Assembly (NCBI GenBank): GCA_902592985.1
Contig: CACJGR010000006.1
Span: forward strand, 1 to 41,627
Direction of reading: 5' to 3'
Source: an uncultured Pelagibacteraceae bacterium
GTDB taxonomy: Bacteria; Pseudomonadota; Alphaproteobacteria; Pelagibacterales; Pelagibacteraceae
Length of the DNA stretch: 41,627 bases
Part shown: one piece after another, positions 1 through 10,295 of the stretch
Numbering within the stretch: the first letter of the stretch is position 1
Layout: each line of letters opens with the position of its first letter
Program-made: the position numbers and the translations under genes
The notes under the pieces: generated by a model
What the model was told of the DNA's origin: nothing
Databases searched by the model: none
Seen by the model: the letters and a program-made list of their open reading frames with translations, nothing else

Positions 1-371
1 TATTAAAAAAATTTGCAAAGAAAAGATATCAGATTTCTTTGCCTGTAATTAAAAAAAAATTTGACATGGATTTTTACAAGTGGTCTTTTAATGACTCTCT
101 AAAAATTAACCAATTTGGAATTCCTGAACCGAGTTCTAAAAAATTAATTTATCCAGATATAATTCTAATACCATTAGTTGCTTTTGATAATAATTTAAAC
201 CGTTTGGGTTATGGAGGAGGTTATTATGATCGTTTCATTAAAAAATTAACAAAGAAAAAAAAAATTTTAAAAATTGGTTTAGCCTTTTCAGTTCAAAAAA
301 TTAATAATGTACCTGTAACAAAATATGATAAAAAACTAGATTATATTGTAACGGATAAATATATTTTATAA
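1..371 (+). CDS. 5-formyltetrahydrofolate cyclo-ligase, 5' end missing
   Basis: This is the C-terminal part of a methenyl-THF synthetase, which uses ATP to turn 5-formyl-THF into 5,10-methenyl-THF in the cytoplasmic folate pool. The frame is open from base 3, the left edge of the window, so the true start lies outside. The TTG at 39 sits mid-domain and is not a start. The visible part has the family's LPV strand, then the signature glycine loop YGGGYYDRF (around codons 70-78 of the visible part), then the final strand ending in DYIVTD. The stop overlaps the ATG of the next gene by one base, so the two are probably co-transcribed. The identification rests on the YGGGYYDR motif and is firm. Confidence 0.9.
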   Translation, partial: LKKFAKKRYQISLPVIKKKFDMDFYKWSFNDSLKINQFGIPEPSSKKLIYPDIILIPLVAFDNNLNRLGYGGGYYDRFIKKLTKKKKILKIGLAFSVQKINNVPVTKYDKKLDYIVTDKYIL

Positions 372-1177
372 TGAGGATACTTTTTTTAGGTGATGTAGTT
401 GGAAAATCTGGCTGTTTAGCTGTAACCCAAAATTTGCCAGACCTAATAAAAAAGAGAAAAATAGATTTTGTAATTATAAATGGAGAAAATGCTGCCGATC
501 AAGGAGTAGGCATCACAGAAGAAATCAGCAATAATCTTTTTAATTGTGGAGCTGACGTAATAACTACCGGTAATCATGTTTGGGATCAAAAAGAGGCATT
601 AAGTTATATTAGTAAGGAAAATAGACTTTTGAGACCTGAAAATTTAATTAAACCATCTCCAGGAAAGGGATTTGAAATATTTAAAACAAAAAACAATTTT
701 AAAGTTGGTGTTCTTAATTTAATGGGAAACATATATATGAAAAAATGTGACGATGTATTTGAATCATCAAAAGAATTTATAAAAAAAAATAATTTAAAAG
801 AAGATTATGATTTTTTAGTAGTTGATTTTCACGGCGAAATTACAAGTGAAAAAATGGCAATGGGACATTTTTTTGATGGAAAAGCAACTTTAGTTGTTGG
901 TACTCACACCCATGTTCCTACCAATGATGCTAGAATTTTAGAAAATGGCACTGCATATCTAACAGATGCTGGCATGTGTGGAGATTATAATTCAGTAATT
1001 GGAATGAATAAAAATAATTCTTTAAATAAATTTTTAAAAAAAGAATATAAAAAACATTTTCCAGCAATAGGTAAAGCTACTTTGAGCGGTGTAATTGTTG
1101 AAGCTGATACAAAAAATGGGTTGGCAAAAGGTATTGAAAATTTTATATACGGAGGAGATTTAAAAAATTCTGATTAA
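371..1177 (+). CDS. YmdB-family metallophosphoesterase (TIGR00282 type)
   Basis: This 268-residue cytoplasmic protein belongs to the calcineurin-like family of Bacillus YmdB, a 2',3'-cyclic-nucleotide phosphodiesterase. Metal-site motifs are visible in order: GDVVG (residues 7-11), NGENAADQGVG (around 37-47), GNHVWDQ (around 67-73), DFHGE (around 152-156) and GTHTHVPTND (around 177-186). The length is normal for the family. The ATG overlaps the stop of the cyclo-ligase gene in a TAATG junction, and yebC starts 3 bases after its stop, so this is the second gene of an operon. In Alphaproteobacteria this gene is commonly found between the cyclo-ligase and yebC. Its physiological substrate in this lineage is not established. 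Confidence 0.88.
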   Translation: MRILFLGDVVGKSGCLAVTQNLPDLIKKRKIDFVIINGENAADQGVGITEEISNNLFNCGADVITTGNHVWDQKEALSYISKENRLLRPENLIKPSPGKGFEIFKTKNNFKVGVLNLMGNIYMKKCDDVFESSKEFIKKNNLKEDYDFLVVDFHGEITSEKMAMGHFFDGKATLVVGTHTHVPTNDARILENGTAYLTDAGMCGDYNSVIGMNKNNSLNKFLKKEYKKHFPAIGKATLSGVIVEADTKNGLAKGIENFIYGGDLKNSD

Positions 1178-1179
1178 TT

Positions 1180-1905
1180 ATGGCAGGTCATTCACATTGG
1201 GCAGGAATTAAGCATAAAAAGGGTAAAGCTGATAAAAAAAAATCAAATATATTTTCAAAATTATCAAGAGAAATTATAGTTGCAGCAAAACTAGGTGATA
1301 AAGATCCAGATATGAATGCAAGATTAAGATCAGCAATCCAGGCGGCACGATCAGCAAATATGCCTAAAGGAAATATTGAAAGAGCTATCAATAAATCTTC
1401 AACAAGTATTGGTTCAAATTTTGAAAATTTAAGATATGAAGGATTTGGTCCAGATAAAATAGCAGTAGTTGTTGAAACATTAACAGATAATAAAAATAGA
1501 ACAGCATCAAGTATTAGGACTATTTTTCAAAAAAGTGGTGGTAGTCTTGGAACCCAAGGTTCGGCAACTCATAATTTTAGTCAACTTGGAGTTATTAAAA
1601 TTGATAAAAAAGAGATATCCGATGAAAATATTTTAGAGCTTGCAATTGATTCTGGTGCCGATGAATGTATATCAAGTAATGATTTTCATGAAATTCATTG
1701 TGAAATGAGTAAAGTTTATAGTGTAAAAAAAAAATTAGAATCTACAATTCAAAATTTCATTTTTGCAGGAATAGAATGGAAACCCTTAAATTGCGTGGAA
1801 ATCAGTAAAGACAAATTAGAAGCAACGACTGAATTTTTAGAAACTCTAGAAGACAATGATGATGTTCAAAGTGTTTATACCAACCTAAAATTAACAAATA
1901 ATTAA
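1180..1905 (+). CDS. yebC: YebC/PmpR/TACO1 family protein
   Basis: A 241-residue YebC-family protein with the diagnostic N-terminus MAGHSHWAGIKHKKGKAD. The whole length matches the usual three-domain form of about 240-250 residues, including the LRYEGFGP strand and the TDNKNRT helix start. Family members were first called DNA-binding regulators (PmpR). More recent work on YebC and its mitochondrial relative TACO1 points to a role in translation, easing stalls on difficult peptide stretches, so the name transcriptional regulator should be held loosely. The stop TAA overlaps the ATG of the resolvase gene by one base, consistent with translational coupling. Confidence 0.93.
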   Translation: MAGHSHWAGIKHKKGKADKKKSNIFSKLSREIIVAAKLGDKDPDMNARLRSAIQAARSANMPKGNIERAINKSSTSIGSNFENLRYEGFGPDKIAVVVETLTDNKNRTASSIRTIFQKSGGSLGTQGSATHNFSQLGVIKIDKKEISDENILELAIDSGADECISSNDFHEIHCEMSKVYSVKKKLESTIQNFIFAGIEWKPLNCVEISKDKLEATTEFLETLEDNDDVQSVYTNLKLTNN

Positions 1906-2399
1906 TGCTTATAATTGGAATTGATCCAGGCATTTCAGGTTCAATATGTTTCTTTGAAGATGGAAAAATAATTGATCTTGTTGAAATGCCTAGCATGGCT
2001 GAAGGAAAAAAAAATAAAAAACAAGTTAATGCTGCTCAAATTTATAATGAAATTAATAAAAGGATTAAAAATCTTGAAAAAAAAAATATTAAAGTTGTTA
2101 TTGAGCAAGTATCTGCAATGCCAGGTCAAGGTGTAACTAGTATGTTTAATTTTGGTCAATCATTTGGAGTTTTAAAAGGGGTTTGTTCAGCTATGCAACT
2201 TTCAATGTATCTTGTAAGACCAGCAAAATGGAAAAAGTATTTTAATCTTATTAATTCAGAAAAAGATGCTAGTAGAACCAAAGCAATTCAAATTTTTCCT
2301 TATATTTCAGCACAATTATCTAGAAAAAAAGACGCAAATAAAGCGGATGCCATTCTAATAGCCAGTTTTTTCTACGAAACTTATCAATCTGAAGAGTAG
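1905..2399 (+). CDS. RuvC-fold Holliday junction resolvase, phage type
   Basis: A 164-residue RNase H-fold nuclease expected to cut Holliday junctions. Likely catalytic acids are D7 in GIDPGISG, E67 in VVIEQV, and D143 and D148 in KKDANKADAILIA. It sits exactly where ruvC lies in many proteobacteria, after yebC, but differs from ordinary RuvC. The segment AMPGQGVTSMFNFGQS (71-86), the following WK and the terminal D-x4-AD spacing resemble the RuvC-like resolvases of tailed phages and some bacteria, as I recall those families. In E. coli RuvC the last two aspartates are three residues apart; here they are five apart. No ruvA, ruvB or ybgC follows; tolQ comes next. It may be the housekeeping resolvase here or an ancient replacement. 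Confidence 0.78.
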   Translation: MLIIGIDPGISGSICFFEDGKIIDLVEMPSMAEGKKNKKQVNAAQIYNEINKRIKNLEKKNIKVVIEQVSAMPGQGVTSMFNFGQSFGVLKGVCSAMQLSMYLVRPAKWKKYFNLINSEKDASRTKAIQIFPYISAQLSRKKDANKADAILIASFFYETYQSEE

Positions 2400-2452
2400 T
2401 TATTTATTATTATAGACAAATTCATGACACATTTTAGTGTGAGATCTTAGCT

Positions 2453-3127
2453 ATGGAAGCAGACATAACATCTCAAGCAGTTGGTTTAGCAAGCAATACA
2501 GATTTTTCTATAATGACATTGTTTATTAGAGCTGACATAATTGTAAAGTCAGTAATATTACTATTGATAGCTAGCTCAATCTATTCATGGGCAATTATTT
2601 TTGAAAAAATTAAATTATTTAAAAAAATTAATACAAGCACTGATGACTTTGAGAACAAATTTTGGAAATCAAAATCTGCAGAAACTTTTTATAATAGTCT
2701 TCCAATAAACATAGACGATCCTATGGCAAACGTTTTTAAAGATTCAATGCAAGTATTGTTAAAATCTAAACGTAGCTCCAATCTAAATGAAAAAATGTCT
2801 AGAATGTTAGAGATAAATATTTATCGGCAAATGGAAAAGATTGAAAAAAGCTATACGTTTCTTGCAACAGTAGGATCTACTGCGCCATTTATAGGGTTAT
2901 TTGGAACAGTATGGGGAATTATGAATTCATTCCAGTCAATTGCAATTTCTAGAAATACAAGTTTAGCAATTGTTGCCCCAGGCATTGCTGAAGCTTTGTT
3001 TGCAACAGCTTTAGGATTACTAGCAGCAATTCCAGCTGTAGTAGCTTTTAATAAATTTAGCAATGATTCTAGAAAATATTTACAAAAATTGGAAAATTTT
3101 TCAAAAAGACTTTTATCAATAATTTAA
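2453..3127 (+). CDS. tolQ: TolQ, proton-channel subunit of Tol-Pal
   Basis: A 224-residue inner-membrane protein of the MotA/TolQ/ExbB family. With TolR it forms the proton-driven motor that energises TolA and pulls the outer membrane inwards during division. A first membrane segment lies at about 31-49 (VKSVILLLIASSIYSWAII). A cytoplasmic loop follows, then the family signature STAPFIGLFGTVWGI (around 141-155) leading into the second segment, and a third, Ala-rich segment at about 180-200 (EALFATALGLLAAIPAV). The 53 bases upstream contain no other gene. tolR begins 3 bases after the stop. The product is slightly shorter than E. coli TolQ but complete. Confidence 0.95.
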   Translation: MEADITSQAVGLASNTDFSIMTLFIRADIIVKSVILLLIASSIYSWAIIFEKIKLFKKINTSTDDFENKFWKSKSAETFYNSLPINIDDPMANVFKDSMQVLLKSKRSSNLNEKMSRMLEINIYRQMEKIEKSYTFLATVGSTAPFIGLFGTVWGIMNSFQSIAISRNTSLAIVAPGIAEALFATALGLLAAIPAVVAFNKFSNDSRKYLQKLENFSKRLLSII

Positions 3128-3129
3128 TA

Positions 3130-3546
3130 ATGGCATTTAAATTAAAACGTTCATCTCGAGAACCAATGAGCGAAATAAATGTTACTCCATTCGTTGATGT
3201 AATGTTGGTATTGTTAATTATTTTTATGGTAACAGCTCCATTATTAACTGTTGGAGTTCAAGTTGATTTGCCCGAAAGTTCAGCAGACTCACTTCCAGAA
3301 GAGCAAGAACCTTTAACATTAACTATTAATTCTAAAGGTGAAATTTTTATTCAAGAGGCTAAAGTTGAGTATGAAAAAATTATTGCAAAAATATTAGCAA
3401 TTTCAAAAAATAGAACTGATACAAGGATTTACGTAAGAGGAGACAAAACAATTAATTATGGAAGAGTTTTAGAAATAATGGGCATGCTTTCAGGGTCAGG
3501 TTTTACTAAAGTTGCATTAATTTCAGAGCCTTATAAAGAAAGGTAA
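3130..3546 (+). CDS. tolR: TolR, ExbD-type motor subunit
   Basis: A 138-residue ExbD/TolR protein: a short cytoplasmic N-terminus, one membrane helix, and a periplasmic domain that can bind peptidoglycan. The segment INVTPFVDVMLVLLIIFMV (about 17-35) carries the helix and the conserved membrane aspartate, D24, which takes part in proton flow in this family. The periplasmic part runs from the DLPES motif to the end and has the usual length. It sits between tolQ (2 intergenic bases) and tolA (4 intergenic bases), inside one transcription unit. Confidence 0.95.
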   Translation: MAFKLKRSSREPMSEINVTPFVDVMLVLLIIFMVTAPLLTVGVQVDLPESSADSLPEEQEPLTLTINSKGEIFIQEAKVEYEKIIAKILAISKNRTDTRIYVRGDKTINYGRVLEIMGMLSGSGFTKVALISEPYKER

Positions 3547-3550
3547 AGTC

Positions 3551-4357
3551 GTGATTAGAAATATTGTTATTTCTTCAACTTTTCATTTGTCTATAATTTT
3601 AATTGCATCAATGAGTTTGCCATTTTTATTAAAAAAACCGATTGATCTTCCGCCAATTATTTCAATCGAACTTATTCAAATTACTGATAAAACTAATATT
3701 CCTTTTGCTCCAAAGGCAAAAAAAATAATTGAAAAAGTGAAGAAAAAAGAAAAACTAGTCTCTGAGCAAGCTCCACCTAAAATTATAAAAAAAGAAAAAC
3801 CTGAATCAATTCCCTTACCAGATGAGAAGATTAAAAAAGTAGAAAAATTAGAAGATAAAAAACAAAATCCAGAACAAATAGATAATGAAGTTAAACAAGT
3901 TTCAGAGTTTGAAAAAGAAGAATTGTTTGACCCGAACAATATTGCAGCACTTATTGACAAATCTAAAGAAGAAGCTGCAGAAACTAATATAAAAACAAAT
4001 AAAATTAGTCAAGACCAAGATAAAAGTATTGATGTGACAGGTTTATCACTAAGTGAAGAAGATGCTTTAAAAGCACAAATCTTTACGTGTTGGAGCATAC
4101 CGCTAGGATTACCTTATAATGAAAATTTATTAGTTAGAATAAAGTTAAAGTTAAAACCAGATGGATCTGTTATAAGATCGGAAGTTTTAGATCATGCAAG
4201 AATGAATAAACCTGGGCAAGGATTTTATAAAGTATTAGCCGAAAGTGCATTAAGAGCAATTAAATTATGTCAACCATTAAGAGTTCCAACTACAGGCTAT
4301 GAAAGATGGAAAGATTTACAATTAAACTTTGATGCGAGAGAGATGTTAGAAGGTTAA
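3551..4357 (+). CDS. tolA: TolA, trans-periplasmic linker of Tol-Pal
   Basis: A 268-residue TolA, anchored in the inner membrane and crossing the periplasm to contact TolB and Pal. An N-terminal membrane helix covers about residues 5-26. A Lys/Glu/Pro-rich region of about 110 residues follows (around 55-165, runs such as [10 protein letters not shown]), shorter than the long helical domain of E. coli TolA. The C-terminal domain (about 170-268) has the family features of one Cys in FTCWSIP and a second in KLCQPL. The start codon is GTG, 4 bases after tolR. Low sequence identity is normal for TolA; position and domain plan make the call secure. Confidence 0.9.
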
Positions 4358-4359
4358 AA

Positions 4360-5706
4360 ATGTTATTTAGATACTTATTTTTTATATTAATAATTTTTTT
4401 ACCTATTAAAACTTTTGCTTTAATAGAAGTTGATATCACAAGAGGAAATCTAAGTCCTTTACCGATAGCAGTATCCCCTTTATCTATAGATAAAAAATCT
4501 AAAGAAAGTTTTAACGAAATATTAAAAAATGAGAAAGATATTGGTGCAGAGATTTCAATGATTGTTGAAAACAATTTAAAACAATCAGGTTTATTTAATC
4601 CTTTAAATAAAAATGCATTTCTGCAAAAACCAGATATTGCACATTTAAAACCTCGATTTGAAGATTGGGCACTAATTAAAGCTCAAGCTTTAATTACAGG
4701 GAAAGTAACTTTTATTAATGAAAAATTGAGAGTTGAATTTCGACTGTGGGATGTTTTAGCTGCAAAAGAAATGATGGCTTTAGCTTTTACAACTGTACCA
4801 AATAATTGGAGACGAGTAGGTCATATAATTACAGATAAAGTTTATGAACGGTTAACTGGAGAAAAAGGTTATTTTGATACTAGAATTATTTATGTTGCTG
4901 AAGAAGGAAAAAAAACAAATAGAATTAAAAAATTGGCAATTATGGACCAGGATGGTTTTAATACAAAATATTTAACTTTAGGAAATGAATTGGTGCTAAC
5001 ACCCAGATTTAACCCAACCAATCAGATGGTAACTTATTTATCTTATTTTAGAAATTTGCCTAGAGTTTATTTACTTGATATAGAAACTGGAATTCAAGAA
5101 GTTGTAGGTGATTTTCCAGGCATGACATTTGCACCAAGATTTTCACCAGATGGAAAAAAAATAATAATGAGTTTTGCTATGGATGGCAATTCAGATATTT
5201 ATACGATGGATCTTGAAAATAGAATTGTTGAAAGAATTACAAACCATCCATCAATTGACACATCTCCGTCTTATTCGCCCAATAGTAAATATATTTGTTT
5301 TAATTCTGACAGAAGTGGTTACCAGCAAATTTATGTAATGAGAAGCGATGGCAGTAATGTTAAAAGAATTTCATTTGGTAAAGGTTTGTATGGAACTCCG
5401 GTTTGGTCACCGAGAGGTGATTTAATTGCTTTTACAAAATTACATAAAGGTAAATTTTATATTGGAGTTATGAGAACCGACGGCTCAGGTGAAAGATTGT
5501 TAACTGAAAATTTTTACCAAGAAGCCCCATCATGGTCGCCAAATGGAAGAGTTTTGATATTTTATAGAGAAACGAAAACTGATGAAAAAGGAGAAGGATT
5601 TTCAGCTAAATTATGGTCTATAGATTTAACAGGCTATAATGAGAGGTTAGTAGAGACAGAAACAGACGCTTCAGACCCATCCTGGTCATCTTTATTGAGT
5701 AATTAA
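4360..5706 (+). CDS. tolB: TolB, periplasmic beta-propeller of Tol-Pal
   Basis: A 448-residue periplasmic protein. A signal peptide occupies about 1-20 (hydrophobic [10 protein letters not shown]), and the mature N-terminus carries the TolA-binding TolB box region ([11 protein letters not shown]). An N-terminal alpha/beta domain (to about 160) is followed by a six-bladed propeller with repeated motifs of the type [33 protein letters not shown] and [10 protein letters not shown]. The length is close to the family's usual 430-450. It begins 2 bases after tolA. Pal follows after a 76-base gap, the largest inside the block. Confidence 0.96.
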
Positions 5707-5772
5707 TAGTAAATGGTTGATTTTTAACTTGAAACATTTAAATAGTTATGAAAAAGTTACATATTCAATATA

Positions 5773-5778
5773 AGGAGC
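5773..5778 (+). promoter_or_regulatory. strong ribosome binding site of pal
   Basis: An AAGGAG sequence lies about five bases before the ATG of pal. Most genes in this window have no recognisable Shine-Dalgarno sequence, so this one stands out. It fits the high copy number that Pal has in other Gram-negative cells, which is general knowledge and not measured here. The 76-base tolB-pal gap gives room for a separate promoter, but I could not identify convincing -35 and -10 boxes in it. Confidence 0.7.
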
Positions 5779-5782
5779 AGTA

Positions 5783-6268
5783 ATGGACTTAGGCAAAATT
5801 TTTAAAAATACATTTCTAGTTATAGTAGCATGCATAGCTTTATCAGCTTGTGCAACTCAAAAGAAAGTAGACAGCACCGGCCAAATGCAGGGTGATGTGT
5901 ACACTGGAACAGATACAGTTAAGTATTTAGCATCAGGAGTACCGGATAGAGTTTTCTTTGCAACAAATGAATCAGTACTAACAACTAAATCAAGAGATAC
6001 TTTAAGAAAACAAGCTGCATGGATGAGAAAAAATAGTGAACTAACTTTTGTGATTGAAGGACATGCAGACGAAAGAGGAACAAGAGAATATAACTTAGCC
6101 TTAGGTGAGCGAAGAGCAAATGCAGCTAAGGATTACCTAATGACTTATGGAGTGGCTGGAAATAGATTGCAAGTGATTAGTTATGGAAAAGAAAGACCTG
6201 TTGATTCAGGATCTAATCCATTATCTTGGTCAAAAAACAGAAGATCAGTTACAGTAAAAGCTAATTAG
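5783..6268 (+). CDS. pal: Pal, peptidoglycan-associated lipoprotein
   Basis: A 161-residue outer-membrane lipoprotein that holds the outer membrane to peptidoglycan and is the outer partner of the Tol machine. The signal sequence ends in the lipobox LSAC, with the lipidated Cys at residue 23. A short linker leads to an OmpA-like domain (about 48-160) with FFATNESVL, the peptidoglycan-binding signature GHADERGTREYNLALGERRA (around 93-112) and a closing RRSVTV. All the hallmark residues are present. An intrinsic terminator lies directly after the stop, so pal is probably the last gene of the main tol transcript. Confidence 0.97.
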   Translation: MDLGKIFKNTFLVIVACIALSACATQKKVDSTGQMQGDVYTGTDTVKYLASGVPDRVFFATNESVLTTKSRDTLRKQAAWMRKNSELTFVIEGHADERGTREYNLALGERRANAAKDYLMTYGVAGNRLQVISYGKERPVDSGSNPLSWSKNRRSVTVKAN

Positions 6269-6280
6269 TTAAATTAATTT

Positions 6281-6319
6281 TAAAAGACCCTGTTATGAAA
6301 TATACAGGGTCTTTTTTTT
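6281..6319 (+). terminator. rho-independent terminator between pal and cpoB
   Basis: An eleven-base perfect inverted repeat, AAAAGACCCTG and CAGGGTCTTTT, surrounds a loop of about 13 bases and runs into eight T residues. The six-base GACCCT core is G+C-rich in a very A+T-rich surrounding. It is the clearest intrinsic terminator in the window. It begins about 13 bases after the pal stop and ends about 28 bases before cpoB. Confidence 0.9.
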
Positions 6320-6346
6320 GCCATTATTATAATTACAAATCAATGG

Positions 6347-7339
6347 ATGATTAAGTTAAAAAATTTTATTGTTATAAATTTATTTATAATAATTATCCTA
6401 GTAAGTACAAAATCTTTTTCAGAAAATCATAATATATTGGAAATATTAGAGCTAATACAAAAAGATCTTAAGACACTGGAAAAGGCAGTTTATTCAGGTT
6501 CATTAAATGATAGTGTAAATAATTCAACCTCTTCAAGCTCTATTGATCAAAATACTGAAGATGTTTTAACTAGACATTTATTAAAATTGTCAGACATTGA
6601 AAAACAATTTCAAGAGTTAACAAACAAATTCGAAGAGATTAATTTTAAAATTGATAAATTATCGAATAGATTATCAAAAGTACAGGCAGATAATCAAATT
6701 AGATTTCAAGAACTAGAAAATAATTCAATTATTTCAGATGATGAAAGTAGGAAAATAACATCATTACCAAAAGAAGAAACAAAAAAAATTTTACCAGGAT
6801 CTTCAGAACCTCAAGATTTAGGTTCAATATCTTATAAAGACACAGAAACCAATTTATTAACACAGCAAACTCAGTCTATAGAGTCTACTGGAACAATATT
6901 AACGGAAACTTTTGAATCTGAAGAAAAATTATTACCTGATGAAAGTCCTGAAAAACAATATGAGTTTGCGATAAGTTTTTTAAAAGTAGGAGATTACAAC
7001 ACAGCCGAAAGGGCGTTTAAAGAATTTATTGATACTAATACCGAACATAAGTTAGCTGGAAATGCACAATACTGGTATGCCGAAACGTTTAGAATTAGAC
7101 AGTTGTATACAGATGCAGCCTCAGCTTATCTTGAAGGTTATCAGAAATATCCTAAAAGTGATAAGGCTCCTATAAATTTATTAAAACTTGGTGTATCATT
7201 AGTTCAAATAGGAGAAAAAGATCAAGGTTGTTTGATGATCACTGGTGTAGAGAAACAATATCCAAAAGCAAACCAATCTGTTCTTCAAAAAGCCAAATAT
7301 GAAGAAAAAAAGTTTGACTGCAAAAAAGAAAATTCATAA
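6347..7339 (+). CDS. cpoB: CpoB (YbgF), Tol-associated periplasmic protein
   Basis: A 330-residue periplasmic protein that in E. coli coordinates Tol-driven outer-membrane constriction with septal peptidoglycan synthesis. A signal peptide covers about 1-25 (hydrophobic VINLFIIIILVSTKSFS). A coiled-coil region lies around 75-125 (LSDIEKQFQELTNKFEEINF). A Ser/Thr/Glu-rich linker follows, then TPR-like repeats from about 203 to the end (QYEFAISFLKVGDYNTAERAF, YWYAETFRI). It lies downstream of the pal terminator, so it needs read-through or its own promoter. An overlapping ATG at 6343 is in another frame; the ATG at 6347 opens this gene. Confidence 0.88.
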   Translation: MIKLKNFIVINLFIIIILVSTKSFSENHNILEILELIQKDLKTLEKAVYSGSLNDSVNNSTSSSSIDQNTEDVLTRHLLKLSDIEKQFQELTNKFEEINFKIDKLSNRLSKVQADNQIRFQELENNSIISDDESRKITSLPKEETKKILPGSSEPQDLGSISYKDTETNLLTQQTQSIESTGTILTETFESEEKLLPDESPEKQYEFAISFLKVGDYNTAERAFKEFIDTNTEHKLAGNAQYWYAETFRIRQLYTDAASAYLEGYQKYPKSDKAPINLLKLGVSLVQIGEKDQGCLMITGVEKQYPKANQSVLQKAKYEEKKFDCKKENS

Positions 7340-8348
7340 TTCAATTCTCAAACATTTAATTAATCAAAGGGTATTAAGGATTTATAAAGAGTTTAAAAAT
7401 TCTTTAAATATAAACAATGATTTTGCTGTAGCAGTATCGGGAGGACCAGACAGTTTATCCTTAGCATTTTTAGCAAAATGTTTTTCATTGATTAATCAAA
7501 GAGATGTAAAATTTTACATAGTTGATCACAAACTACGTAAAAATTCATCATCTGAGGCTAAATTAGTATCTTTAACATTAAAAAAATTTGACATTAATTG
7601 CAAAATATTGACTTGGTACGGAAAAAAGCCATTAACTAATATCCAGGCGTTAGCAAGAGATCATAGGTATTCTCTTTTAACAAACCAATGTAAAAAAAAT
7701 AAGGTCAATTATCTTTTACTAGGACACCATATAGATGATCTGTATGAAAATTTTTTAATTAGGCTTCTTAGAGGAAGTGGATTAAAAGGTTTAACATCTT
7801 TTGGAAAAACTGCAGAATACCAAAGAAATGGTATTAAAATTTTAAGACCACTAATTAATTTAGAAAAAAAGGAGTTAATTTATTTATCAAACAAGGTATT
7901 TAATTTCTTTATTAAAGATCCTTCTAATTTAAATGAAAATTTCAAAAGAATTAGAATTAGAAATTTAATGGAAAATTTTAAAAAAGAAGGTCTAGACAAA
8001 AAAAAACTTAAATTAACTATTAGAAATTTGAAAGATTCGAATCAATCAATAAATTTTTATGTTAAAAAAAACATAGATAAAAATACAAAATTTTTTAATA
8101 AAAAAAATACTTTTATATTAAACGAATTTTTTTTTGATCAATCTCATGAAGTGATTTTTAGATCTTTATTATTTTTGATGAAAACAATTAGTGGAAAACA
8201 TTATGCTGCGAGAGGAAAGAGAGTTAATGATTTAATTGAAAAAATTAAGTTAAACAAAATTAGTACAAAAGTAACACTTGGTGGATGTTTTGTTGAAAAA
8301 TTTAACAAAACTATATTAATTTCAAGAGAAAAATCCTCTAAAACTTAG
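7299..8348 (+). CDS. tilS: tRNA(Ile)-lysidine synthase
   Basis: A 349-residue N-type ATP pyrophosphatase that puts lysine on C34 of the tRNA-Ile read as AUA, changing both its charging and its decoding. The P-loop SGGPDS is at 47-52. HKLRKNSS, RDHRYSLL and GHHIDDLYENFLIRLLRGSGLKGL are family blocks of the catalytic domain; the rest is Lys-rich and poorly conserved. The ATG lies inside the last 41 bases of cpoB in another frame. There is no in-frame ATG, GTG or TTG between it and the P-loop that would leave a normal N-terminus, so I keep the overlapping start. tilS directly before ftsH is a common proteobacterial arrangement. The low-G+C genome makes AUA decoding a heavy demand. Confidence 0.9.
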   Translation: MKKKSLTAKKKIHNSILKHLINQRVLRIYKEFKNSLNINNDFAVAVSGGPDSLSLAFLAKCFSLINQRDVKFYIVDHKLRKNSSSEAKLVSLTLKKFDINCKILTWYGKKPLTNIQALARDHRYSLLTNQCKKNKVNYLLLGHHIDDLYENFLIRLLRGSGLKGLTSFGKTAEYQRNGIKILRPLINLEKKELIYLSNKVFNFFIKDPSNLNENFKRIRIRNLMENFKKEGLDKKKLKLTIRNLKDSNQSINFYVKKNIDKNTKFFNKKNTFILNEFFFDQSHEVIFRSLLFLMKTISGKHYAARGKRVNDLIEKIKLNKISTKVTLGGCFVEKFNKTILISREKSSKT

Positions 8349-8402
8349 TTTTTATAACAAATTGGCACTTGTTTAATTTATAATAATTCTTATCTTACTC
8401 TT

Positions 8403-10295
8403 ATGAATCTAAAGAATTTAGCAATGTGGGCCGTAATAGTTTTTTTAACTATTGGCCTTTATAATATGTTCAAAAACCCTCAAGGCTCTATAGCGACAAA
8501 AAATACAATTATATTTTCAGAATTTTTATCAGAAGTGGATAATGGAAGAGTTGTAAAAGTAGAAATAAAAGGAAATAACATTAAGGGAATTTTATCTGAT
8601 GGAGGTGTTTTTACTACTTATGCGCCTGATGATCCAAACTTAATTGAAAAATTATCAAATAAAGGTGTGAGCATTTCAGCTGTTCCTCTTGAAGAAAAAA
8701 TGCCTTCAATTTTAGGTGTATTACTATCTTGGTTTCCAATGTTGTTACTGATTGCTGTTTGGATTTTCTTTATGAGACAAATGCAAGGTGGAAGAGGTGG
8801 AGCAATGGGTTTTGGACGCTCTAAAGCAAAAATGATGAATGAATTAAAAGGAAAAGTAACATTTAATGATGTTGCGGGAATTGAAGAAGCTAAAGAAGAA
8901 GTTGAAGAAGTTGTGGAGTTTCTAAAAGATCCAAAAAAATTTAGTAGACTTGGTGGTAAAATACCGAGAGGATGTTTATTGGTTGGTCCACCAGGAACAG
9001 GTAAAACTTTATTAGCAAGAGCAATTGCTGGAGAAGCAAACGTTCCTTTTTTCACTATATCTGGATCGGATTTTGTTGAAATGTTTGTCGGTGTTGGAGC
9101 ATCAAGAGTAAGAGATATGTTTGAACAGGGAAAAAAACATTCACCATGTATTATTTTTATTGACGAAATAGATGCAGTTGGAAGAAGCAGAGGCGCAGGT
9201 TTAGGTGGCGGTAATGATGAAAGAGAACAAACTTTAAACCAACTTTTAGTTGAAATGGATGGATTTGATACTAATGAAGGGGTAATAATAATAGCAGCAA
9301 CTAACAGACCGGATGTTTTAGACCCTGCACTTTTAAGACCAGGAAGATTTGATAGACAGGTAGTTGTATCTTTACCTGATATTATTGGTAGAGAAAAAAT
9401 TCTTAAAGTTCATGCGAAAAAAATATCAATGACACCAGATATTAATTTAAGAACAGTAGCAAGAGGAACACCAGGTTTTTCAGGAGCAGATTTAGCTAAC
9501 TTGGTTAATGAAGCGGCTTTACTAGCAGCGAGGAAAAATAAAAGAGTTGTAACTTACGCTGAATTTGAAGAATCTAAAGATAAAGTTATGATGGGTGCTG
9601 AAAGAAGATCTATGGTAATGACTGAAGATGAAAAGAAACTAACAGCTTATCATGAAGCAGGTCATGCGATTGTGACTATTAATGAAAAAGCTGCACACCC
9701 AATTCATAAAGCAACCATAATACCAAGAGGAAGAGCTTTAGGGATGGTAATGCAATTACCAGAAAGGGATGAATTGTCACAAACTAGAGAACAACTTAAT
9801 TCCCAGATGGCTATTGCTATGGGAGGTAGAGTAGCAGAAGAAATTATTTTTGGTGATGAAAAAGTAACAACTGGAGCAGCAAGCGATATTGAACAAGCAA
9901 CAAAGAGAGCAAGAGCGATGGTTATGAAGGCTGGTTTAAGCAAAGAATTAGGCCCTGTAGCATATGGAGAAAATGAAGAAGAAGTTTTTTTAGGCAGATC
10001 TGTAGCAAGACATCAACATATGTCAGAGGAAACTTCTAGAAAAGTAGATGCAGAAATAAGAAAATTAGTTGAAAAAGGTTATGAAAGAGCAAAAAAAGTT
10101 TTAAATGAAAAAATTGATGATCTACATAAACTTGCAAAAGCTCTTTTAACATATGAAACTTTAACTGGAGCAGAAATTGAAGATTTAATCAATAAAAACG
10201 TCTTTCCAGCCAACAAAGAAGACTTAAAAGCTGAAGATGAAGAAAAAGGATCAGCTCTAGGATCGATTGGATTAAAGCCAAAAATAGTTCATTAA
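8403..10295 (+). CDS. ftsH: FtsH, membrane AAA+ zinc protease
   Basis: A 630-residue inner-membrane protease that degrades misassembled membrane proteins and some soluble regulators; in E. coli it removes sigma-32 and LpxC. Two membrane helices (about 6-22 and 105-125) flank a periplasmic loop. The AAA+ domain has Walker A GPPGTGKT at 195-202, Walker [12 protein letters not shown] and the second region of homology [19 protein letters not shown]. The zinc site is HEAGH at 417-421. The length is normal. It stands 54 bases after tilS and 6 bases before folP. Its regulators hflK and hflC, and the sigma-32 gene, are also in this window. Confidence 0.97.

Follow-up and report, generated by a model that had tools for sequence, protein, structure and literature searches.

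RuvABC is regarded as near-universal bacterial machinery that has undergone little horizontal transfer (PMC1193525), and in a survey of 1549 bacteria every RuvC-bearing genome reportedly also had RuvA and RuvB (PMC3403352). The active site of canonical RuvC is formed by D7, E66, D138, and D141 (E. coli numbering). In Firmicutes, the non-orthologous resolvase RecU stands in for RuvC (PMC1193525; PMC3403352); these bacteria retain RuvAB, and recU mostly lies away from ruvAB. The RuvC of Lactococcus phage bIL67 (PDB 4ktw) brings back UV resistance in an E. coli ∆ruvABC strain (PMC3864405). The chloroplast resolvase MOC1 (6kvo, 6is8, 8kfv) cleaves junctions in vitro, and in NtMOC1 residues D116, D118, E175, and E258 were named catalytic and D253 dispensable (PMC7078210). 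MOC1 acts in chloroplasts without RuvAB. SAR11 is among the ocean's most abundant lineages, and one of its core gene clusters has been tabulated as 'putative Holliday junction resolvase', type unspecified (PMC3686209). A 2025 paper argued that SAR11 recombination is promiscuous and reported that the deep-sea subclades Ic and IIa.A lack RecBCD, MutS, and MutL, and that Pelagibacter ubique and Ic lack the RecF pathway (PMC12374537); its text has no word starting with 'ruv'. In the open-access literature searched, no paper described the SAR11 replacement analyzed below in its title or the start of its abstract; most subscription papers lay outside this scope.

The window, the whole stretch of 41,627 nucleotides that was analyzed, comes from the family Pelagibacteraceae (SAR11; f1 below, with f2 its sister family; G and L numbers are genome and locus labels). 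It carries the following features.

371..1177, + strand: ymdB-like gene upstream of yebC, in the conserved neighbourhood (PF13277, 1.2e-97; synteny)
1180..1905, + strand: yebC, the left edge of the slot (PF01709, 4.7e-50; PF20772, 6.7e-30)
1905..2399, + strand: gene for a MOC1-type/phage-type RuvC-fold Holliday junction resolvase of 164 amino acids (phrog_1770, 9.1e-36; no PF02075)
1923..1925, + strand: codon of catalytic Asp7, which aligns to the first Asp in both MOC1 and E. coli RuvC
2103..2105, + strand: codon of catalytic Glu67, aligned with NtMOC1 E175
2106..2132, + strand: base-recognition loop (residues 68-76, QVSAMPGQG), longer than that of canonical RuvC by a two-residue insertion
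2331..2348, + strand: C-terminal acidic pair Asp143 and Asp148 (D-x4-D), D253/E258 in NtMOC1
2453..3127, + strand: tolQ, the right edge of the slot (PF01618, 7.9e-38), at the same place in the fetched f1 loci
3130..6268, + strand: tolR, tolA, tolB, and pal, the conserved downstream block (Pfam matches for TolR, TolB, and the OmpA-family Pal; tolA by position and synteny)

The gene order is thus ymdB-yebC-resolvase-tolQ-tolR-tolA-tolB-pal. The resolvase ATG overlaps the yebC stop codon (TAATG at 1903-1907), a stop-start coupling, and 53 bases separate the resolvase stop from the tolQ start. No ORF for ruvA, ruvB, or ybgC was present in the yebC-tolQ interval of the window. An earlier sequence-only reading had given the length and position of the gene after yebC, the 53-base gap, and the absence of ruvA, ruvB, and ybgC from the interval, and these held; its final 'D-x4-AD' spacing was one residue off, the actual D143/D148 pair being D-x4-D (D-x3-AD). 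Residues 71-86 of the resolvase are AMPGQGVTSMFNFGQS. The closest named relative among genome records is from the uncultured Pelagibacteraceae isolate AG-435-N15 (92% identity), and the resolvase of 'Candidatus Pelagibacter ubique' HTCC9565 is 86% identical to the window protein.

The protein was not recognized as canonical RuvC: it had no PF02075 match in Pfam, and it scored 20.6 bits with the NCBIfam RuvC model NF000711, below the cut-off of 163. In PHROGs it matched phrog_1770, 'Holliday junction resolvase', with the E-value listed above. A single canonical alphaproteobacterial RuvC used as a control gave 4.8e-41 with PF02075 (140.6 bits against a cut-off of 22.2) and just 4.5e-7 with phrog_1770. 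When a profile of 20 SAR11 proteins (A1) was searched against the PDB, MOC1 chains were matched at 5.7e-22 to 8.1e-13, and the best canonical RuvC at 0.028. Similarly, the AlphaFold2 model (pLDDT 92.7) was nearest to MOC1-junction complexes (Z 23.6, rmsd 1.6, 159 residues aligned); among other RuvC folds, canonical RuvC reached Z 17.1 at best (E. coli RuvC 16.9) and bIL67 RuvC 15.3. These profile and structure-model matches support the earlier phage-type assignment, and MOC1-type/phrog_1770 is a more exact label than generic phage RuvC.

Relatives were found by tblastn in 82 of 50,697 phage records, including Salmonella phage epsilon15 and Planktothrix phage PaV-LD, each at less than 60% identity. 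IMG/VR contigs yielded at least 588 confirmed relatives, the best 80 at 37-48% identity. Of these 80 loci, picked as the best relatives, 44 were used in the alignment and tree. The window protein was 36-48% identical to these 44 viral proteins, 26-31% to MOC1, 20% to bIL67 RuvC, and 15-23% to 11 canonical RuvC proteins.

We then compared the active sites. D7, E67, D143, and D148 were invariant in 130/130 sequences, and alignments place them at the first Asp, E175, D253, and E258 of NtMOC1. The 130 sequences comprise 129 of 130 loci (112 distinct proteins), L054 being left out as a broken copy, together with the window, which is counted twice because L005 is the window itself. Selection of the proteins relied on a motif around residues 71-77, which includes Q75, so that invariance of the loop is partly built in; the four acidic residues lie outside this motif, as does G9. 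NtMOC1 D118 is replaced by G9, its cytosine-reading D183 by Q75, and Y180 by M72. Because of the D118 and D183 changes, we filed the window protein as MOC1-type and not as a MOC1 orthologue, and the sequence preference of MOC1 cannot be transferred to it. The two proteins share a full-length RuvC/RNase H fold, an extended loop, and an acidic D...E...D-x4-(D/E) series, but unlike MOC1 the SAR11 protein is bacterial and lies in the ruvC operon slot.

In canonical RuvC (E. coli, Alphaproteobacteria; 1hjr), which has the same chromosomal slot and presumed task, acidic equivalents of D7, E67, and D148 were present in 11/11 rows; D143 had none, and an Asp stood at column 145 in 9/11. The two-residue loop insertion after the catalytic Glu was found in 20/20 SAR11 rows, 44/44 viral rows, MOC1, and the alphaproteobacterial proteins of G313, G505, and G440, whereas it was absent from all 11 canonical RuvC rows and also from bIL67 RuvC, which belongs to a different branch despite its RuvC fold. 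Because the viral and genome-contig loci were gathered with the peptides AMPGQGV, TSMFNFG, and similar ones, the viral insertion is not independent evidence; MOC1 and the profile-found rows (G313, G505, and G440) are. The SAR11 proteins share the AMPGQGV loop with the phrog_1770 phage resolvases. These are phage genes in phage genomes, whereas the SAR11 copies form a group of their own. N145 and K146 were present in 20/20 SAR11 rows, and no viral row shared residue 145.

The median dN/dS was 0.088 (NG86; the window gene was set against 110 of 129 proteins, and 108 of these pairs were usable), showing strong purifying selection, with the reservation that dS was often near 1. Members of the family retain the open frame, at 56-92% identity, except for a broken copy in G137 and a copy cut by a contig end in G142. 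The conserved frame and the low dN/dS indicate that the ORF is not a chance one.

To analyze RuvABC in the order, 197 genomes were searched. Canonical RuvC was above cut-off in 0/197 genomes, RuvA in 0/197, and RuvB (TIGR00635, E<=1e-20 and over cut-off) in 0/197, the window's genome included; in the latter genome there was also no canonical RuvC match. Since that genome (1.14 Mb, 44 contigs) is only 82.9% complete and is weak evidence alone, the absence of RuvAB rests on the order-wide searches. Of the 197 genomes, 149 were at least 90% complete with at most 5% contamination, and several were single-contig; RuvB was found in 0/149. In 14 well-known control genomes, RuvC, RuvB, and RuvA were matched in 8, 10, and 12 (over cut-off in 8, 10, and 10), and in Caulobacter every time. 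Four weak RuvB_N (PF05496) matches in the window's genome, two of them over cut-off, were read as other AAA+ proteins, as TIGR00635 finds no RuvB there. Separately, the RuvA model TIGR00084 gave sub-threshold matches in 27/197 genomes, spanning about 30 positions and mostly in ORFs of about 200 amino acids (e.g., L093-L095); these may be another helix-hairpin-helix protein, although this is a guess.

The MOC1-type gene was present in 136/197 genomes, all f1, and nearly always as a single match per genome. Its neighbours in the fetched f1 loci were the same as in the window. Eight listed f1 genomes without the gene also lacked a TolQ match, although the same TolQ query matched 12/12 f2 genomes; a further replacement in these eight was considered and dropped, since the locus is evidently missing from the assemblies. 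In G134, a weak PF02075 match (20.4 bits, under the cut-off of 22.2) was located at its MOC1-type gene. A 4HBT thioesterase gene (ybgC by position) lay between the resolvase gene and tolQ in the two loci examined closely, which belong to genera g3 and g4. The resolvase-tolQ gap was 478-518 bases in the other four g2-g4 loci versus 51-90 in the fetched g1, g5, and g6 loci. Because the thioesterase gene persists in g3 and g4, ybgC left the locus separately from ruvAB; the earlier claim that ybgC is missing held for the yebC-tolQ interval of the window.

In the sister family f2, the same slot held a different nuclease. In 5/5 loci read (L068-L072), a PD-(D/E)xK protein of 123-127 amino acids lay between yebC and tolQ; all five proteins matched PDDEXK_15 (PF24608; 30.4-33.7 bits against a cut-off of 27) and phrog_244 (8.2e-20 to 2.7e-21), and E14, D50, and E60-x-K62 were invariant in them. 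The f2-type gene was found in 43/197 genomes, every one from f2; each of the 12 f2 genomes with at least 90% completeness had it. Among the 197, the MOC1-type and the f2-type proteins were never matched together in one genome, and 10/197, outside f1 by listing order, matched neither. Relatives of the f2 protein were found on viral contigs and in Roseobacter phage CRP-810 (47.5%). PF01870 (Hjc) stayed below its cut-off of 21.1 in 3/3 f2 proteins (14.4-17.3 bits). In a model of a viral relative, not of an f2 protein itself, archaeal Hjc ranked first, weakly (Foldseek E 0.02; Z 7.7, rmsd 2.8 over 89). A PDB search with A2 returned designed proteins only, which were judged spurious. The f2 nuclease, newly described here in this slot, belongs to another superfamily and is not homologous to the window's RuvC-fold protein. 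A change of slot content between f1 and f2 is therefore certain.

We next examined the slot in other Alphaproteobacteria. In 15 RuvB-bearing loci, hand-chosen around RuvB matches, ruvC-ruvA-ruvB occurred in this order in 12, of which 10 had yebC upstream; in the remaining three (L380, L382, and L386), ruvC was not seen in the stretch taken. The usual order in RuvB-bearing relatives was yebC-ruvC-ruvA-ruvB-(ybgC)-tolQ. In a survey of the class, RuvB was found at E<=1e-30 in 346/385 genomes. Five of the 39 RuvB-less genomes were f1, and the other 34 were searched for YebC, which was present in 29. A phage-type resolvase lay right after yebC in 12 of these 29, all of them profiled; canonical ruvC still followed yebC in eight (G314, G303, G567, G517, G344, G280, G415, and G240), several at contig edges, and neither type did in nine (G329, G298, G495, G406, G393, G442, G213, G366, and G268).

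The slot fillers in these 12 genomes were of several types. In G313 (family f119, no RuvB match), a more distant MOC1/phrog_1770 protein (7.7e-22) was encoded at L375 8805-9305, followed by ybgC-tolQ. Families f25 (4 genomes), f32 (3), and f142 (1) had phrog_2002 proteins of about 97-108 amino acids before tolQ (2.5e-10 to 2.1e-6), between yebC and tolQ at L431, L433-L435, L437, L439, L440, and L442; three of these tested against Pfam gave no match. In f51 (3 genomes; L426, L428, and L429), a 168-amino-acid PDDEXK_15/phrog_244 protein followed yebC, 45% identical to Pseudomonas jumbo phage proteins, e.g., of PA5oct, and PP-loop (tilS-like) and ftsH genes lay downstream in place of tol. Comparison of the f2 with the f25/f32 nucleases gave an hhalign probability of 1.1; with blastp, f25 reached 2e-5 to 4e-5 against a very small set, and phrog_2002 weakly matched f2 proteins. 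G505, G389, and G440, class genomes with an A1 match, had no yebC or tol gene within the 6-16 kb examined, and their resolvase genes are possibly mobile or relocated copies. In two single-contig genomes of 1.5 Mb from f108 (L436 and L438, about 1240-3400), a stretch of about 2 kb between yebC and ybgC had no detectable ruv homology.

The history of the slot was traced on a tree of the neighbouring genes yebC, tolQ, tolR, tolB, and ymdB (31 rows, 7 under half filled). In this tree f1 and f2 were sisters (100/100), f32 grouped with f142 (100/99) and f25 with f119 (85/79), and f51 fell among canonical lineages (87/97). Slot type required five changes. We regard this count as provisional, because AT-rich composition may draw lineages together.

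In the resolvase tree, canonical RuvC split off at 100/100 and the SAR11 group (93/95; 70/96 in the first tree) lay among viral proteins. The final tree was built without G440 and without bIL67 RuvC, whose branch in the first tree was extremely long (9 changes per column); G389 was never included, and for the final tree the program issued a warning that long branches were meeting. In AU tests, holding SAR11 with canonical RuvC was not rejected (p-AU 0.678; its log-likelihood exceeded that of the free tree by 6.1), and neither was joining G313 with SAR11 (p 0.156). Since that joining was not rejected, the independence of the f119 event rests solely on the neighbour-gene tree, at a node that was not starred. 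A transfer from phage to SAR11 is likely, and is favoured by the identities to viral and canonical proteins and by the contents of the other slots, not by the resolvase tree; its direction is unresolved.

Taken together, the data show the type of the protein, its intact active site, the strong purifying selection on it, its synteny, the absence of RuvABC across the order, and a different resolvase in the f2 slot. The explanation that we consider likely is that canonical RuvC was replaced in place by a phage-type housekeeping resolvase independent of a motor, with loss of RuvAB; catalysis, independence from RuvAB, and the order of events are inferred. The sequence-only reading had proposed such a replacement, and neither outcome that would have overturned it, a profile assignment to canonical RuvC or a genome retaining ruvA and ruvB, was observed in the searches described above. 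The replacement is supported by the slot order in relatives outside the order, but it is old and family-wide, not specific to this genome, and its phage donor is likely without being demonstrated by the tree. In contrast to the RecU case, RuvAB is missing here and the proposed replacement occupies the ruvC slot itself.

In the proposed scheme, a nuclease of the MOC1/phrog_1770 type would have displaced canonical ruvC from its position between yebC and (ybgC-)tolQ in the Pelagibacteraceae ancestor, and ruvA and ruvB would have been lost. The window gene would then encode the cell's own housekeeping Holliday junction resolvase. By analogy with MOC1 and bIL67 RuvC, the protein, probably a homodimer, would bind the junction and insert its base-recognition loop (AMPGQG) into the crossover, opening it. 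Two symmetric nicks would be made by D7, E67, and D148, with D143 nearby, around metal ions; cutting of junctions was not assayed, and no biochemical or genetic test of the window protein was found in the open-access literature searched. RuvAB would not be needed to hold or scan the junction, and branch migration is proposed to be spontaneous or to depend on another enzyme such as RecG, which was not searched for. The earlier reading also stated that phage-type resolvases act without RuvAB. The literature case, bIL67 RuvC (PMC3864405), concerns a distant relative on another branch; it suggests that a stand-alone phage RuvC can suffice for the job, and for the window protein such independence is only inferred.

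One rival, which we consider very unlikely, is that the gene descends vertically from canonical ruvC and has diverged fast, freed of its RuvAB contacts after RuvAB was lost and merely phage-like. In its favour, the gene occupies the ruvC slot, both proteins are RuvC folds, and the clade of SAR11 with canonical RuvC was not rejected. Against it stand the higher identity to viral than to canonical proteins (the viral rows being picked best relatives), the loop insertion common to MOC1, G313, G505, and G440 and missing from every canonical row, the slow evolution (dN/dS about 0.09), and the f2 nuclease of another superfamily, which cannot be obtained by divergence. A second rival, which we also consider very improbable, is that the protein serves branched phage or plasmid DNA or defence, with chromosomal junctions left to RuvX/YqgF or to RecG with a topoisomerase; neither RuvX/YqgF nor RecG was searched for. 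The closest relatives found outside SAR11 are indeed from phages and viral contigs, but the gene gives about one match per genome within a housekeeping block, is absent in listed f1 genomes only where that block is unassembled, and is under strong purifying selection, and in other lineages the slot is occupied by other junction resolvases, not by defence genes. That the loss of RuvAB is an assembly or search artefact, as the fragmentary state of the window's own genome might suggest, is all but excluded by the absence of RuvB from all 149 good genomes and of RuvC and RuvA over cut-off from all 197, several single-contig, with positive controls.

In-place replacement remains the preferred reading. 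SAR11 lacks the whole RuvABC set and carries a small nuclease, probably independent of a motor, whose kind has its other known members in phages and chloroplasts. Simplification of the junction step would fit with the reported losses of recombination genes in SAR11 (PMC12374537). A bolder reading, towards which we lean without firm commitment, is that the slot between yebC and tolQ serves as a cassette site for resolvases, refilled repeatedly and independently when streamlined alphaproteobacteria lose RuvAB: by MOC1-type RuvC in Pelagibacteraceae and f119, by PD-(D/E)xK phrog_244 proteins in f2 and f51, and by phrog_2002 proteins in f25, f32, and f142. If it is true, free-living, highly recombining bacteria carry out homologous recombination without any RuvABC motor. 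Repeated refilling of one slot by unrelated phage-type resolvases would make the dispensability of RuvAB in the presence of an autonomous resolvase directly testable.

In L054 (G137), at about 5986-9269, the resolvase gene was broken by several stops, and the tolQ, tolR, and tolB matches were also truncated. Frameshifts in the assembly are the likelier cause of this breakage than loss of the gene.
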